Origin: Oceanobacillus halotolerans
Lineage (GTDB): Bacteria; Bacillota; Bacilli; Bacillales; Amphibacillaceae
Length of the DNA: 64,000 nt
Reading direction: 5' to 3'
NCBI RefSeq assembly: GCF_010993955.1
Contig: NZ_WIXL01000002.1
Span: 310,001-374,000 of the forward strand
The position numbers and the translations under genes are program-made. Below the pieces are notes generated by a model that saw only the letters and a program-made list of their open reading frames with translations, had not been told where the DNA came from and made no database searches. Below, piece after piece: positions 31,531-61,243 of the stretch; within the stretch, counting starts at the first letter, position 1; the number at the start of each line of letters is the position of its first letter.

Positions 31531-31668
31531 TAACGTGCAGTAAGACCCCCATTTCAAGATTTCGAGAGATCCAAGAAAGATAAGTGGGGGATCAAACTGC
31601 CCGTAAATGTCCGATTCGTTCAACTAACAATCAGTGGGGGAGGAAAGGAAACCCCCACTGATTGAAGT
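31531..31668 (+). repeat. Two-hairpin element F, copy F1
   Basis: Hairpin a: GACCCCCATTT...AAGTGGGGGATC with the CAGTAAG/ACTGCC flanks. Then a TCCGATTCGTTCAACTAAC spacer, then hairpin b: CAATCAGTGGGGG and CCCCCACTGATTG (31628-31664), a perfect 13-bp stem with an 11-base loop. Reappears reversed at 58321-58518 with a larger loop. Confidence 0.7.
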
Positions 31669-55164: not shown

Positions 55165-56448
55165 TTATAAAAGTGACATATATTTTCGAACTTCCGTTAT
55201 AAAATGAAAAGATCCTGTGACAAAGTAGATAGCATCCTTGTCCCCTTTAAGAAAGTGCTGTAATTTAGCCCGCCAATCTATAGTAAAATCTTGTTCTCCT
55301 TGAAGCTGCATATTTTCTAGTTGTTGAAGTGTAGCAGCACGCTTATGATTAAAGGTCGTTATCGTAACCGTTGAAAAGTGTCCATCTACCATTTGTAGCA
55401 TCGTTTGAATATCTTTATCTTGAAATGCAGCAAATAATAAATGTTTTTCATGAGCTGGATAGATTTCTTCTACAGTTTCGACAAATAACTCCATACCAGC
55501 TGGATTATGTGCGCTATCGGCAATTATGACTGGATCTGTATAAATCTGTTCATACCTTCCTGGAATTGTTACCTTACTCAGACGCTTCAGCGTGTATTCC
55601 CAGTTGATGTGATAACCTTCTGATTGAAGTAGGAATAAGCCTTTGATAGCTACAGCACTATTTTCAACTTGATGTTTACCCTGAGCTAGTATTCTTACCG
55701 TTTGGTTATGTTTTTCGTCATGCCAACTATATCGTTGTATACTTAATTCTTGTTGTCTGTTTGAATAAGAAAAGTCGTGTGACAGTGCATATAATGGAGC
55801 TTCTTTAATGAATGCTTCCTTTTGAATAACTTGAAAAGCTGTACTGTAGACACTTCCTATAATAACGGGCGTTTGATGCTTAATAATACCCGCTTTTTGA
55901 TAGGCAATTTCCTGTATGGTACCACCTAAGAAGTGCGTATGGTCTAGTTCTACATTTGTAATGATCGAAAAAAGAGGAGTAAGGCAATTGGTTGTGTCTT
56001 CTCTTCCTCCCATTCCTGCCTCTATTAGTGCAATTTCGACATGTTGAGAAAAATATAGAAACGCTAGGGCTGTTATAATTTCAAATTCACTGGGCTCCTC
56101 TAAATGCTGATCCAACTCATTTATTGCAGGTAACATGGTATTTAATAATGAAATAAATGTGTCCTCATCTATTAGTGTATTATTGTCAAGAATGTGTCCC
56201 CGTCTACCAGCTAAACTCGGGGAAGTGAATATACCTACTCGATAACCGTTTGCTGCTAAAGCTTGACTTAAAAAATTCGCTGTAGACCCTTTTCCATTAG
56301 TTCCTGCAATGTGAATAGCCTTTATTGTTTCTTGAGGATCACCGAGTAAGTGAAGTAGATGGATTATACGTGTTAAACCTGGTTTTATCCCTAACGAAGC
56401 ACGATTTTCAAAAAATGTTTCAACTTCTTCTATTGATGTGAACATCAT
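55165..56448 (-). CDS. folC: Folylpolyglutamate synthase/dihydrofolate synthase
   Basis: Mur-ligase-type enzyme of 427 residues adding glutamate to folates. IHIAGTNGKGSTANFL is the P-loop (about residues 42-57); VELDHTHFLGGTIQEIAYQKAGII gives the domain-linking signature; ADSAHNPAGMELF lies in the C-terminal domain. I chose the double ATG at 56448 behind AGGTAGGG. It is divergent from the ATP-grasp pair. The comC gene next to folC in B. subtilis is missing; 54850-55164 holds only AT-rich sequence and a fragment of C/D-repeat flank (55034-55140). Confidence 0.95.
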   Translation of the reverse strand: MMFTSIEEVETFFENRASLGIKPGLTRIIHLLHLLGDPQETIKAIHIAGTNGKGSTANFLSQALAANGYRVGIFTSPSLAGRRGHILDNNTLIDEDTFISLLNTMLPAINELDQHLEEPSEFEIITALAFLYFSQHVEIALIEAGMGGREDTTNCLTPLFSIITNVELDHTHFLGGTIQEIAYQKAGIIKHQTPVIIGSVYSTAFQVIQKEAFIKEAPLYALSHDFSYSNRQQELSIQRYSWHDEKHNQTVRILAQGKHQVENSAVAIKGLFLLQSEGYHINWEYTLKRLSKVTIPGRYEQIYTDPVIIADSAHNPAGMELFVETVEEIYPAHEKHLLFAAFQDKDIQTMLQMVDGHFSTVTITTFNHKRAATLQQLENMQLQGEQDFTIDWRAKLQHFLKGDKDAIYFVTGSFHFITEVRKYMSLL

Positions 56449-56534
56449 ATACCCTACCTTTGTCATCTGATATAATAGTTGTCGAATTATTGTTTTTTAT
56501 CACGTAATATATTTTTTATATAAAGAAAGGAAGA

Positions 56535-57443
56535 TTGCGATTGAGTCTCCATGCATGGATTATTTACAATGGCCACCTGCCTAGTAATAAATTTATCGAC
56601 TTTGCAGAATGGCTACATAGTGCCGCTATTAAACGTAATATTACAGCAGAAATGATTCCAAATCACGAGTTATTAGCATTTTTATCGGGTAGCTCACTTG
56701 AATTACGACAAACAAATCCAGCACCATTACCAGATTTTGTTCTATTTACCGATAAAGATATATACTTAGCTAAACAACTTGAATTATTAGGTATTCCTGT
56801 ATTTAATAATGCAGAAGCAATTAGTGTTAGCGATAATAAAATTACTTCTTATCAAATATTAGCACAACATCAGCTGCCTATTCCAAAAACAATTATTGCT
56901 CCGAAAATATTTAATAACCATACAACAATCGATGACGCTTTTATAACCAATGTTATCAACTCATTAGGTTTCCCAATGATTATAAAAGAAGCTTATGGAT
57001 CATTTGGAGAACAAGTCTATTTAATTGAAGACAAATCAGCAATGCTATCTAAAGTAAATGCACTTCTAGGAAAAGAATTTGTCTTTCAAGAATTCATTCA
57101 TACTAGTTATGGAAAAGACTGTCGTTTACATGTTGTTGGAAATCAAGTGGTTGCTAGTATGATGCGAACTGCTTCAGATGACTTTAGAGCAAATGTAACT
57201 GCTGGTGGAACAATGAAACGCTATAATCCTTCACCTATTGAACAAAATATAGCTATTTCAGCAACCAAGGCAATCGGAGCTCATTTTGCTGGTGTAGACT
57301 TATTATTTGGTAAGAATAACAACCCAATTATTTGTGAAATCAACTCCAATGCGCATATTCGAAATATGTATGATTGTACATCAGTTAATGTAGCAGATTA
57401 TATTATCGATTATATTGTTAAAACAGTAAAGCCTAAACATTAA
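56535..57443 (+). CDS. RimK-like ATP-grasp ligase 1
   Basis: A 302-residue ATP-grasp enzyme. N-terminal alpha/beta domain (about 1-100); ATP-grasp from about 105, with NKITSYQILAQHQLPIPKT, the phosphate-loop region IKEAYGSFGEQVYLIED, QEFIHTSYGKDCRLHVVG, DDFRANVTAGG and the metal-binding ICEINSNAH. These match the RimK/glutamate-ligase group (ATP-dependent amide bond formation on a carboxylate). Substrate is unknown. TTG start at 56535 after AAAGGAAG; TTG 56541 is possible. It is followed after 13 bp by a second ligase. Confidence 0.83.
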   Translation: MRLSLHAWIIYNGHLPSNKFIDFAEWLHSAAIKRNITAEMIPNHELLAFLSGSSLELRQTNPAPLPDFVLFTDKDIYLAKQLELLGIPVFNNAEAISVSDNKITSYQILAQHQLPIPKTIIAPKIFNNHTTIDDAFITNVINSLGFPMIIKEAYGSFGEQVYLIEDKSAMLSKVNALLGKEFVFQEFIHTSYGKDCRLHVVGNQVVASMMRTASDDFRANVTAGGTMKRYNPSPIEQNIAISATKAIGAHFAGVDLLFGKNNNPIICEINSNAHIRNMYDCTSVNVADYIIDYIVKTVKPKH

Positions 57444-57456
57444 AGGATGAGATAAC

Positions 57457-58320
57457 TTGACGAAAACTGGTTGGCTTATTTATCGAAAAGAGGATGCAAA
57501 ACAAAACGAGGGGTTTATTCAGTGGTTTATGGATGAAGCAAGTGCAATTGATATTTCTATAGAACTAGTATATCGTGAACAGGTTCAAATTGGTATTATG
57601 AATCAAAAACTAAGTATTTTAAAAGATGGAGAAAGTACTTCTTTTCCTAACTTCGCGATTGTTCGTACAATAGACCCCTTACTAAGTTCACACTTAGAAA
57701 ATATAGGTATTACGGTATATAATTCCTCATATGTAGCATCAATTTGTAATCATAAAGCAATGACACATCAAGAGGTAATGAAACTTCATATTCCGATGGT
57801 CAATACCATTTTCACAACAAAAGATACCATATCACCAGCAGCTCCCCCTATCGAATATCCCTTTGTGATCAAGGATGTACATAGTAGAGGGGGGAAACAT
57901 GTTTTCTATGTGAACAACGAAAGAGTGCTTAAAGAAAGTTTAATGAAAATAACGAGCCAGGATATTCTTATTCAGGATTGTAAGGTTCAACTCGGAAAAG
58001 ATGTTCGTGTGTTTGTCATTGGAAAAGAGATCATCGCGGCAGTATTACGGGAAAGTCAGACGGATTTCCGTGCCAATTTTAAATTAGGTGGTCAAGCATC
58101 CATCTATCATCTATCTTCTTCAGAAAAACAGATGATCCAAAAAATTGTTAAGCATTTCGATTTTGGCATGGTTGGCATCGATTTCTTAATAAATCATGAT
58201 GGAACACTACTTTTTAATGAAATAGAGGATGTTGTTGGATCTCGCACATTAAGTGCTGTAAGCGATATTAATATTGTTAAGCAGTACCTTCACTATATAA
58301 AGGATGATTTAATAAAGTGA
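57457..58320 (+). CDS. RimK-like ATP-grasp ligase 2
   Basis: A 287-residue paralogue of the preceding gene: NHKAMTHQEVMKLHIPMVNT, VIKDVHSRGGKHVFYVNN, QDCKVQLGKDVRVFVIG, TDFRANFKLGG and LLFNEIEDVVGSRTLS. At the position of the usual E-x-N metal site it has E-I-E-D, so Asn is replaced by Glu. Starts at TTG 57457 behind AAAGGAT, and the two genes are surely cotranscribed. Possible roles include making a heterodimer or two successive ligations on a peptide, protein tail or cofactor; none can be shown from sequence. Confidence 0.82.
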   Translation: MTKTGWLIYRKEDAKQNEGFIQWFMDEASAIDISIELVYREQVQIGIMNQKLSILKDGESTSFPNFAIVRTIDPLLSSHLENIGITVYNSSYVASICNHKAMTHQEVMKLHIPMVNTIFTTKDTISPAAPPIEYPFVIKDVHSRGGKHVFYVNNERVLKESLMKITSQDILIQDCKVQLGKDVRVFVIGKEIIAAVLRESQTDFRANFKLGGQASIYHLSSSEKQMIQKIVKHFDFGMVGIDFLINHDGTLLFNEIEDVVGSRTLSAVSDINIVKQYLHYIKDDLIK

Positions 58321-58518
58321 AACTCATTCAGTAGGGGTTTTGCGACGCACAGGACGTGCTAGTGCCGACGTTGGCGATTGACGTGGCGTTTTTAGTCGGC
58401 CTTCATCCCCTACTAAATGTTAGTTGAACGAATCAGGACTTTACTGGCAGTTATCCCCCACTTACACTTCCTTGAAACGCGAAGTCTTGAAGTGGGGGTC
58501 TTACTGCCAGTTAAGACG
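58321..58518 (-). repeat. Two-hairpin element F with M in its loop, copy F2
   Basis: Reverse orientation to F1. Outer hairpin b is AACTCATTCAGTAGGGG/CCCCTACTAAATGTTAGTT, and its loop contains module M6 (58342-58400: on the minus strand GCCGAC...GTCGGC then ACTAGCACGTCCTGTGCG). Hairpin a follows: ATCCCCCACTT...AAGTGGGGGTC with CAGT flanks. Confidence 0.72.
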
Positions 58519-58526
58519 TGATAAAA

Positions 58527-58572
58527 TAAACCAAAGTGGAATTTCAACTTAAGAAATTCCACTTTGGTTTTT
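58527..58572 (-). terminator. valS terminator
   Basis: AAACCAAAGTGGAATTTC and GAAATTCCACTTTGGTTT form a perfect 18-bp stem around AACTTAA; A- and T-runs on both sides, so it probably serves the converging ATP-grasp and valS transcripts. Confidence 0.92.
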
Positions 58573-58594
58573 AAATTATTTTTGGAAAAAGAAC

Positions 58595-61243
58595 TTACCC
58601 TTTTAACTCTTCTAAGCGAGCTTTCACTTTTGCTTGTTTATCCAAGTAATCTTTCTCTTTTTGTTTTTCTTCCTCCACTACTGCTTCAGGAGCTTTGTTC
58701 ACAAATCCTTCATTCGCTAACTTTTTCTGAACACGCTCCACTTCTTTCGTCCACTTCTCTAATTCTTTTTCTAAGCGAACAATTTCCTTATCAAAGTCAA
58801 TTAATCCTTCAAGTGGCAAGAAGATTTCAGCACCTGTTACCACAGCGGTCATCGCTTTATCTGGAGCATCGACACTTGTTGCGATAGTTAATTCACTTGG
58901 ATTACAGAACCTTTCCAAATATTCACGGTGCTGCTCCAATTCACTTACAACTTTATCATTCTCAGCTTGGATGAGGAGTTGTATTTGTTTAGACATTGGT
59001 GTGTTGACTTCAGCACGAATATTTCGCACTGATTTAATAATGGCAACGAGTCGTTTCATTTCTTTGGAAGCCTGTTCATCATGAAATTCATCACGAACCT
59101 CAGGCCATTTTGCCACCGTAATAGACTCACCTTCATGTGGGAGCTGCTGCCATATTTCCTCGGTAATAAATGGCATGTATGGATGCAGCATGCGCATTGT
59201 TTGATCTAACACATAAGCTAACACAGAACGAGTTGTTTTCTTTTTCGCTTCATCATCCCCATATAAAGGAAGTTTAGCCATTTCAATATACCAGTCACAC
59301 AATTCATCCCAAATAAAATTATAGAGATACCGTCCTGCTTCTCCAAATTCATATTTAGTTGTGTTCTTCGTAACCTGTTCAATCGTTTCATTTAAACGGG
59401 TCAAAATCCATTTATCAGCAAGTGTCAAATCACCAGTAAGATCAATGTCTTCATAGCTGAAGTCTTCCATATTCATTAAGGAGAAGCGGGAAGCATTCCA
59501 TACTTTATTGGCAAAATTCCATGTTGCTTCTACTTTTTCCCAATGGAAGCGCAAATCCTGACCTGGTGTAGATCCTGTTAATAAGAAGTAACGTAAGGAG
59601 TCAGCACCATACTTATCAATAACATCCATTGGATCAACGCCATTACCGAGCGATTTACTCATTTTACGTCCTTGTGCATCTCGAATCAAGCCATGTACTA
59701 AAACATCTTTGAATGGACGTTTTCCAGTGAATTCTTTTGATTGAAAAATCATTCGAGCTACCCAGAAGAAAATAATATCATAGCCAGTAACTAAGACATC
59801 TGTCGGGAAGTAACGCTTAAAATCCTCAGCGTTTTTATCGGGCCAACCCATGGTAGAAAATGGCCAAAGCGCACTAGAGAACCACGTATCCAATACATCT
59901 TCATCCTGCTCCCAATTTTCGATATCTTCTGGGGCTTCTTTTCCTACATATACCTCTTTTGTTTCTTTGTGATACCATGCTGGGATACGATGGCCCCACC
60001 ACAATTGACGGGAAATACACCAATCACGTATATTTTCCATCCAATGTAAATACGTACGTTCAAATCGGTCTGGCACAAAGTTGACTTTATCTTCACTATT
60101 TTGCAGACCAATTGCCTCATCAGCTAATGGTTGCATTTTCACAAACCATTGTGTTGATAAGTAAGGTTCAACAACAGCCCCACTGCGTTCGGAATGTCCT
60201 ACTTGATGGGTATGGTCCTCAATCTTAAACAACACACCTTGTTCTTCTAGATCTTTTACAATTTGCTTACGGCATTCAAAGCGATCCAGACCTTTATAAT
60301 CACCCGCGTTTTCATTCATCGATCCGTCTTCATTCATGATAAGAATTCGTTCTAAGTTATGACGGTTTCCGATATCAAAGTCATTCGGATCATGGGCAGG
60401 TGTTATTTTAACCGCACCAGACCCCATTTCCATATCGACATAATCATCTGCTACGATTTCAATCTCACGACCAACAATTGGAAGTACTACTGTTTTCCCA
60501 ATTAAGTGCTGATAACGTTCATCATCTGGGTGTACTGCTACCGCTGTATCCCCCAACATTGTTTCTGGACGGGTAGTTGCTATTTCGATTGTTTCCTCAC
60601 TACCTTTAATTGGATATCGCATATGATAAAACTTTCCTTGCACCTCTTCATAGATAACTTCTATATCTGAAAGAGCTGTTTTCGTATCAGGGTCCCAATT
60701 AATGATATATTCACCACGATAAATGAACCCTTTTTCATAAAGGGTGACAAATACTTCGCGCACTGCATCAGATAACCCCTCATCTAAGGTGAAACGTTCA
60801 CGGGAATAATCAACTCCTAAGCCTAATTTTTCCCATTGCGCGCGAATGAAATCAGCATACTCACCCTTCCATTCCCAAGCTTTTTCTAAGAACTTCTCTC
60901 TGCCTAAATCATATCGGCTTTGTCCCTCTTCTTTCAGCTTTGCTTCTACTTTTGCCTGTGTTGCAATCCCAGCATGGTCCATTCCAGGAAGCCATAATAC
61001 ATCATATCCCTGCATCCGCTTCATTCTGGAGATCGTATCCTGCATCGTGGTATCCCATGCATGTCCCAGATGCAACTTCCCTGTAACATTTGGAGGCGGG
61101 ATAACAATAGAAAATGGCTCCTTATCCGGATTATTGGTTGCTTCAAAGAACTTCCCTTCCACCCAAAACTTATATCGATCTTTTTCTACTGCTTGTGGAT
61201 CATATTTTGATGACATGGACACTTCCTTTTCTTTCTCGCTCAT
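58595..61243 (-). CDS. valS: Valine--tRNA ligase
   Basis: Class I synthetase of 882 residues. HIGH-type motif is [15 protein letters not shown] (about 48-62), the CP1 editing domain contains [24 protein letters not shown] is [14 protein letters not shown] (about 524), followed by the helical anticodon domain and a C-terminal coiled-coil arm. AAGGAGGA precedes ATG 61243. Controlled by its own T-box leader. Confidence 0.98.

Follow-up and report, generated by a model that had tools for sequence, protein, structure and literature searches.

ATP-grasp ligases of the RimK fold add tails to ribosomal proteins and cofactors, and they also serve in the synthesis of lysine and arginine. Cyanophycin synthetase contains ATP-grasp and Mur-ligase domains, and YheC and YheD, the spore-linked ATP-grasp proteins of Bacillus, are encoded by tandem ATP-grasp genes in the Bacillaceae. 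A precedent for two ATP-grasp ligases that act in turn is provided by MyfA and MyfB, which do so on methylofuran according to PMC8141765.

In the window, the 64,000-nucleotide stretch of the Oceanobacillus halotolerans genome analyzed here, two genes for ligases of this fold lie in tandem on the + strand. G1 (56535-57443, 302 codons) encodes a RimK-like ATP-grasp ligase, and G2 (57457-58320, 287 codons) encodes a second one that resembles ArgX and LysX. Both reading frames are intact and have TTG starts, with 13 bases between the stop of G1 and the start of G2. Coordinates and strands agree with the initial annotation, in which the pair was placed divergent from folC (55165-56466, − strand; TIGR01499 340.9 bits, cut-off 162.65) and convergent with valS (58595-61243, − strand); the name valS is that of the initial annotation, and homologues of this gene are found at the same place in related genomes. 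Within the stretch between folC and G1 (56467-56540, + strand), a ribosome site, AAAGGAAG (56526-56533, + strand), and a −10-like word, TGATATAAT (56468-56476, + strand), can be read from the sequence. From this ribosome site, the gap is 7 bases to the TTG at 56541 and 1 base to the TTG at 56535; the spacing is better for the second TTG, and the true start of G1 is probably at 56541, giving a protein of 300 amino acids. The promoter of G1 is a guess, because TGATATAAT is absent from the list of the consensus scanner and because the 11 promoter-like sites that the scanner reported are no excess over the shuffle mean of 10.5. Between G2 and valS lies a terminator-like hairpin on the − strand (58528-58570; 18 pairs, then a T-rich tail), the only one found, versus a shuffle mean of 1.1. 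The initial annotation saw no gene for a small precursor peptide next to the pair; among the open reading frames of at least 60 amino acids, the first one after G2 (58564-58887, + strand) is antisense to the end of valS.

The sequence directly after G2 is a 200-base repeat with two hairpins (58321-58520; fold z-score −4.54), which also occurs at 31531-31645 of the window. It has at least 42 matches in the same genome, a lower bound in that 40 of 155 candidate places were scored, and 31 of the 42 comprise the second half only. On the − strand, the first half contains the Bacillaceae-1 RNA of Rfam (58346-58411; 36.9 bits, cut-off 35); this RNA appears to be a single module within a bigger element that looks mobile.

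Both proteins match the Pfam RimK model (PF08443; gathering cut-off 21), G1 with 144.5 bits (E 3.6e-42) and G2 with 90.3 bits (E 1.5e-25). With the subfamily model TIGR00768 (RimK family alpha-L-glutamate ligase; cut-off 143.4), G1 scored above the cut-off (195.9) and G2 just below it (133.8). For single functions we used the curated cut-offs of NCBIfam, and neither protein reached any that was tested: G1 and G2 scored 105.6 and 52.2 bits against the RimK-S6 equivalog (cut-off 331), 140 and 90.4 bits against the LysX/ArgX equivalog TIGR02144 (275.6), 124.2 and 62.5 bits against MptN (350), and 63 and 41.8 bits against CofF (300). The score of G1 with the cyanophycin synthetase model was far below the cut-off (34.4 bits, cut-off 850), and neither protein matched the YheC/YheD family PF14398 at E values up to 0.1. 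As the initial annotation had proposed, G1 and G2 are RimK-fold ligases that fit no tested family of proven function. Their AlphaFold models are confident (pLDDT 90.7 for G1 and 90.4 for G2), and the best fold matches are E. coli RimK 5zct for G1 (Foldseek E 5.8e-26, 26% identity) and ArgX 3vpb for G2. By sequence and fold, the nearest solved relatives are RimK for G1 and ArgX/LysX for G2.

The two ligases had been described as paralogous. They are indeed related (22% identity, E 2e-27; profile-profile alignment of 291 columns, nearly the whole length, E 3.3e-48), but as ancient relatives and not as recent duplicates. In a tree of 45 rows that included E. coli RimK, Pseudomonas RimK, ArgX and LysX, the 17 G2 rows formed one clade (support 99/99) and the 17 G1 rows, together with one distant Bacillota protein, formed another (98/94). 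Because the clades are separate and the identity is 22%, we consider G1 and G2 to be old separate lineages and reject a recent duplication. The deeper order with respect to RimK and ArgX/LysX is not firm. In a second tree of 37 of the 45 rows, which left out L104, L169, L212 and three ATP-grasp proteins encoded beside the gene A5 (see below), G2 joined ArgX/LysX with a support of 90/81, and topology tests on this tree rejected neither a G1+G2 clade (p 0.362) nor a G1+RimK clade (p 0.164).

G1-G2 is a real recurring unit among the relatives of Bacillus. In the order sample, an even sample of 249 genomes, G1 was present in 50 genomes (threshold E up to 1e-60), G2 in 52 and both in 45. The 45 genomes bear 13 family codes, and their coordinates place the two genes next to each other on one strand in 44 of them; in the exception (G110), about 4 kb separate the two. 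The number for G2 was derived from 58 listed genomes by dropping five in which the hit was G1 itself (G003, G007, G042, G196 and G220) and the outlier G215 (CEVN), and it still counts G223, where the gene is cut by the end of a contig, and G132, where it is short and divergent. G1 occurs without G2 in five genomes and G2 without G1 in seven, so the pairing is not strictly obligate, although widespread occurrence as unlinked singletons, which the initial annotation had considered, is not what was found. One genome (G117) has a stop in each of the two genes, which indicates that the pair is dispensable there. Within the family of the window's own genome, 18 of 19 examined genomes carry G1. We also compared 102 loci, some of which may be from the same strain; 98 were scorable, as L113, L116, L162 and L172 gave no scorable G1 with a neighbour. 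The tandem G1-G2 was seen in 80 of the 98, and the gap was between −4 and +17 bases in 51 of the 80, the first in-frame starts being used and overlaps hence being overstated. The named loci, among the best 80 of 490 relatives, are nearly all from relatives of the Bacillaceae, and Clostridium polynesiense also has the tandem. The pair is rare in a phylum sample of 348 genomes (own genome included), in which three other genomes matched G1 at E up to 1e-50 and four others matched the G2 alignment (A2) at E up to 1e-25. As all four of the latter scored higher with the G1 profile, no true G2 is among them, and a wide spread in the phylum was rejected. The candidacy of the pair for an uncharacterized pathway, put forward in the initial annotation, stands, since the pair recurs as a unit and fits no proven-function family tested. 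Searches of open-licence papers brought up nothing on these genes, an absence that carries little weight.

Three unverified records labelled 'Bacteriophage sp.' (L273, L274 and L275; MT838360, MT838010 and MT835788) look like bacterial contigs; two of them, both gut contigs, carry the G1-G2 tandem with overlapping ends, and the third carries a G1-like gene. A function in anti-phage defence was rejected, as there was no PADLOC match at E up to 0.01.

Apart from one position in the metal motif of G2, the residues of the active site that were checked are strictly conserved in both proteins. K151, D195, R197, R211, D255, E268 and N270 of G1 are invariant in 111 of 111 homologues (four of them, L212-L215, distant proteins of other Bacillota), as are K139, D182, R184, R198, N207, D242, E255 and R263 of G2 in 92 of 92 (including the outlier L172). 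When the sequences were aligned to E. coli RimK, the residues K141, D187, R189, D248, E260 and N262 of the latter were found to be kept in 105 of 105 G1 proteins; G2 differs at N262 only, the corresponding residue being Glu in 88 of 88 proteins and Asn in ArgX. The substitution lies in the metal motif NEIEDVVGSR of G2, in which Glu257 replaces the usual Asn; it was observed in 91 of the 92 homologues, the sole exception being L172.

The acceptor site presents a different picture. According to PMC10092738, the polyglutamate chain is held in Pseudomonas RimK by S7, R8, S14 and R64. These contacts are kept in neither G1 (105 proteins) nor G2 (88 proteins), as judged from the N-terminal and less sure part of the alignment: S7 is replaced by Ile, Val or Leu, R8 by Tyr (99 of 105 G1 and 88 of 88 G2), and S14 mostly by Phe or Tyr. 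At the position of R64, all 105 G1 proteins have an Asp that is part of an invariant Asp-Lys-Asp, and G2 shares with ArgX an Arg in the adjacent column, which is invariant in G2; gaps nearby make the exact column unsure. Moreover, no long acidic C-terminal tail was seen on ribosomal protein S6 in the genomes inspected, 15 that carry G1 and 10 that do not, and we rejected S6 as the substrate for this reason. The lack of the RimK tail contacts and the replacement of R64 by Asp suggest that G1 probably acts on an acceptor other than an acidic glutamate tail. Thus, of the initial reading of the pair, the RimK-fold tandem has held, but the addition of glutamate to tails has been weakened by the altered acceptor contacts and by the lack of a long acidic tail in S6.

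The search for fixed partner genes, suggested at the outset, identified three, but in a minority of lineages only. A3 encodes an FGase-like hydrolase that is recurrent beside the pair in some lineages. The hydrolase label is weak, given that the cut-off of the N-formylglutamate amidohydrolase family PF05013 (28.9 bits) was not reached; with a threshold of E 1, three of seven A3 members matched it, the lowest E being 1.3e-4, the relative L207 scored 23.8 bits, and a PDB search with the A3 profile returned nothing usable. A4 encodes a protein of 586-644 amino acids with weak CDC48_N/double-psi-barrel matches below the cut-offs and with an end that, by reading, looks like membrane spans. A5 encodes a FolC-like Mur ligase (TIGR01499 244-248 bits, cut-off 162.65), and the nearest solved chains are folylpolyglutamate synthases. 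In the Sutcliffiella-type loci L126, L218 and L219, five genes stand in a row, A4-A3-G1-G2-A5. Shorter versions are G1-G2-A5 in L115, L119, L120 and L125, which are also of the Sutcliffiella type, and A4-A3-G1-G2 in L107, L164, L170 and L178. Among the 249 genomes, A3 was found in 20, being directly upstream of G1 in eight, which are eight of its 10 strongest matches, and away from the pair in 12; A4 was found in 10, beside G1-G2 in eight and clustered with A3 in all 10; and A5 was found in 14, directly after G2 in seven and away from the pair in the other seven. Two genomes have A3-A4-A5 in the absence of G1-G2. In one of these and in two more A5 loci, A5 has a neighbour that encodes a distant RimK-like ATP-grasp protein; the ATP-grasp proteins that adjoin A5 in L264, L265 and L207 branch in the tree far from either ligase of the pair. 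The gap between valS and folC in the relatives L268, L270 and L202 holds A5 alone, G2 alone, or A3 and another gene. In L119, the stretch between folC and G1 contains a start that resembles the one of A4 in L126 but no long listed frame, and it appears to be what is left of A4 and the hydrolase gene after decay. One interpretation, which we infer from these arrangements, is that A3, A4, A5 and the pair are one ancestral module that has undergone lineage-specific losses. At the thresholds used, A3, A4 and A5 are all absent from the window's own genome, and they occur in a minority even of the genomes with the pair; the larger cluster may, therefore, say nothing about the pair in the window. Outside the window, the own genome has a surface-polymer-like cluster (G000:C1:515000-534000, L047) that encodes a TupA-like ATP-grasp protein, four ATP-grasp proteins that each carry an acylphosphatase domain, and a PGA_cap protein, next to genes that resemble, by reading, ABC and glycosyltransferase genes.

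The genes of the pair are intact and conserved, frequently in strict pairing; the catalytic residues are invariant, the tail site of RimK is absent, and neighbours recur in some lineages. We think it reasonably likely that G1 and G2 serve one ATP-dependent step of amino-acid conjugation, either as two enzymes in succession or as a pair of subunits. Like other ATP-grasp ligases, each would convert a carboxylate with ATP to an acyl-phosphate and then couple it to an amino group, G1 as a catalyst of the RimK type whose acceptor pocket is changed and G2 as a relative closer to ArgX/LysX whose metal site is changed. The two would share one acceptor, which might be a small molecule or the end of a protein. 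In the extended cluster, the FolC-like Mur ligase could add a further amino acid, the FGase-like hydrolase could trim or recycle the product, and the double-psi-barrel-like protein, with its putative membrane spans, could anchor the step at the membrane. A more far-reaching proposal, which we put forward tentatively and with more doubt than confidence, is that a so far undescribed conjugation pathway of the Bacillota has the pair at its core, and that in this pathway the A4-type membrane protein, the FGase-like hydrolase, the two unlike ATP-grasp ligases and the FolC-like Mur ligase build and trim a conjugate, the metal site of G2 (D, E, E) is of a new type, and lineages keep subsets, the genome of the window the two ligases only.

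The main alternative to two catalysts in one step is that catalysis is left to G1, while G2 has a non-catalytic or regulatory role and shapes or limits G1, the exchange of Asn for Glu having ended or altered catalysis. The Glu in the metal site, fixed in nearly all G2 proteins where RimK and ArgX have Asn, could indeed reflect lost activity. Since the other checked residues of G2 (K139, D182, R184, R198, D242 and E255) are invariant, and since seven genomes have G2 but not G1, which would be strange if G2 were no more than a subunit of G1, we regard this alternative as unlikely. We consider the remaining ones to be less likely than a regulatory G2. Alpha-linked glutamates occur in E. coli folates, and we know of no gene for them. 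One could envision that G1, G2 or both add an alpha-linked residue to the tetrahydrofolate polyglutamates made by FolC. Analogous enzymes are CofF, a ligase for F420 by its NCBIfam name, and MptN, for which PMC8141765 describes tail addition on methanopterin. A divergent folC is upstream of G1 in 79 of the 98 scorable loci, the genes are co-directional with folC in L175 (valS-G1-G2-folC) and L166 (valS-A3-G1-G2-A4-folC), and the second FolC-like gene directly follows G2 in the Sutcliffiella-type loci. However, the folC neighbourhood may be an inherited site only: pairing persists at several other genomic sites (among them those in L159 and L161) in several families, which makes adjacency to folC common but not required. 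Furthermore, the Asp that G1 has in place of the Arg with which RimK meets the acidic chain would suit an anionic glutamate tail badly, and we consider folate tailing improbable.

Some of the other sites invite the hypothesis of a modification in sporulation or germination, akin to that of the YheC/YheD proteins. By reading, genes for GerA-type germinant receptors lie between G1 and G2 in L124 (Gracilibacillus) and L176, the pair adjoins a spoIIR-like gene in L160 and a yyaC-like gene in L169, it follows an FtsK/SpoIIIE-like gene in L273, and spoVID-like and spoIIB-like genes are near it in the window. These neighbours vary between lineages, though; the upstream words in the related pairs L161/L261 and L159/L263 are TATAAT-like −10 words with no evident spore-sigma words (by eye, with no statistic), and neither protein matches the YheC/YheD family, all of which leads us to view a spore role as quite improbable. 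The least probable reading, in our view a remote one, is C-terminal glutamylation of S6 or another protein as carried out by RimK. Among solved structures, the closest to G1 are those of RimK, but the tail of S6, the missing contacts at S7, R8, S14 and R64, and the distance of G1 from the RimK equivalog cut-off all argue against it.

Two successive ligases of one conjugation step thus remain the reading that we prefer. As the known ligases of this fold tail ribosomal proteins or cofactors or work in lysine and arginine synthesis, the wide retention of an unassigned pair points towards a metabolite or a modification, possibly one that is undescribed in these bacteria. What makes the pair testable, by enzyme assay and by metabolomics of mutants, is its strict pairing together with the fixed Glu of G2 and the recurrent partners.

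Compared with the described systems, G1 is most like RimK, the S6:glutamate ligase, in its fold and in the six catalytic positions kept; it is unlike RimK in that the contacts with the polyglutamate tail are missing from G1 and G2, the equivalog score is far below the cut-off, S6 lacks a long acidic tail, and G1 is paired with G2. ArgX and LysX, the LysW:Glu and LysW:aminoadipate ligases, are the best solved relatives of G2, and G2 and ArgX have in common a metal motif of the shape N-E-x-x-D; G2 differs in the Glu that takes the place of the motif Asn, in its score (90.4 bits versus 275.6 for LysX) and in the tree, where the join has a support of 90/81. The combination of ATP-grasp and Mur ligase in cyanophycin synthetase is also seen in the clusters of G1-G2 with a FolC-like gene, but here the proteins are separate, the Mur ligase is of the FolC type, and G1 scores 34.4 bits versus 850. 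YheC and YheD are likewise encoded by tandem ATP-grasp genes, whereas G1 and G2 do not match their family PF14398 at E up to 0.1. MptN, CofF and MyfA/MyfB are RimK-related ligases that act on the tails of cofactors, MyfA and MyfB as two in turn (PMC8141765); G1 is below the cut-offs of MptN (124.2 of 350) and CofF (63 of 300). The fold of G1 and G2 is ordinary, and it is the pairing, the metal motif of G2 and the partner genes that are unusual.
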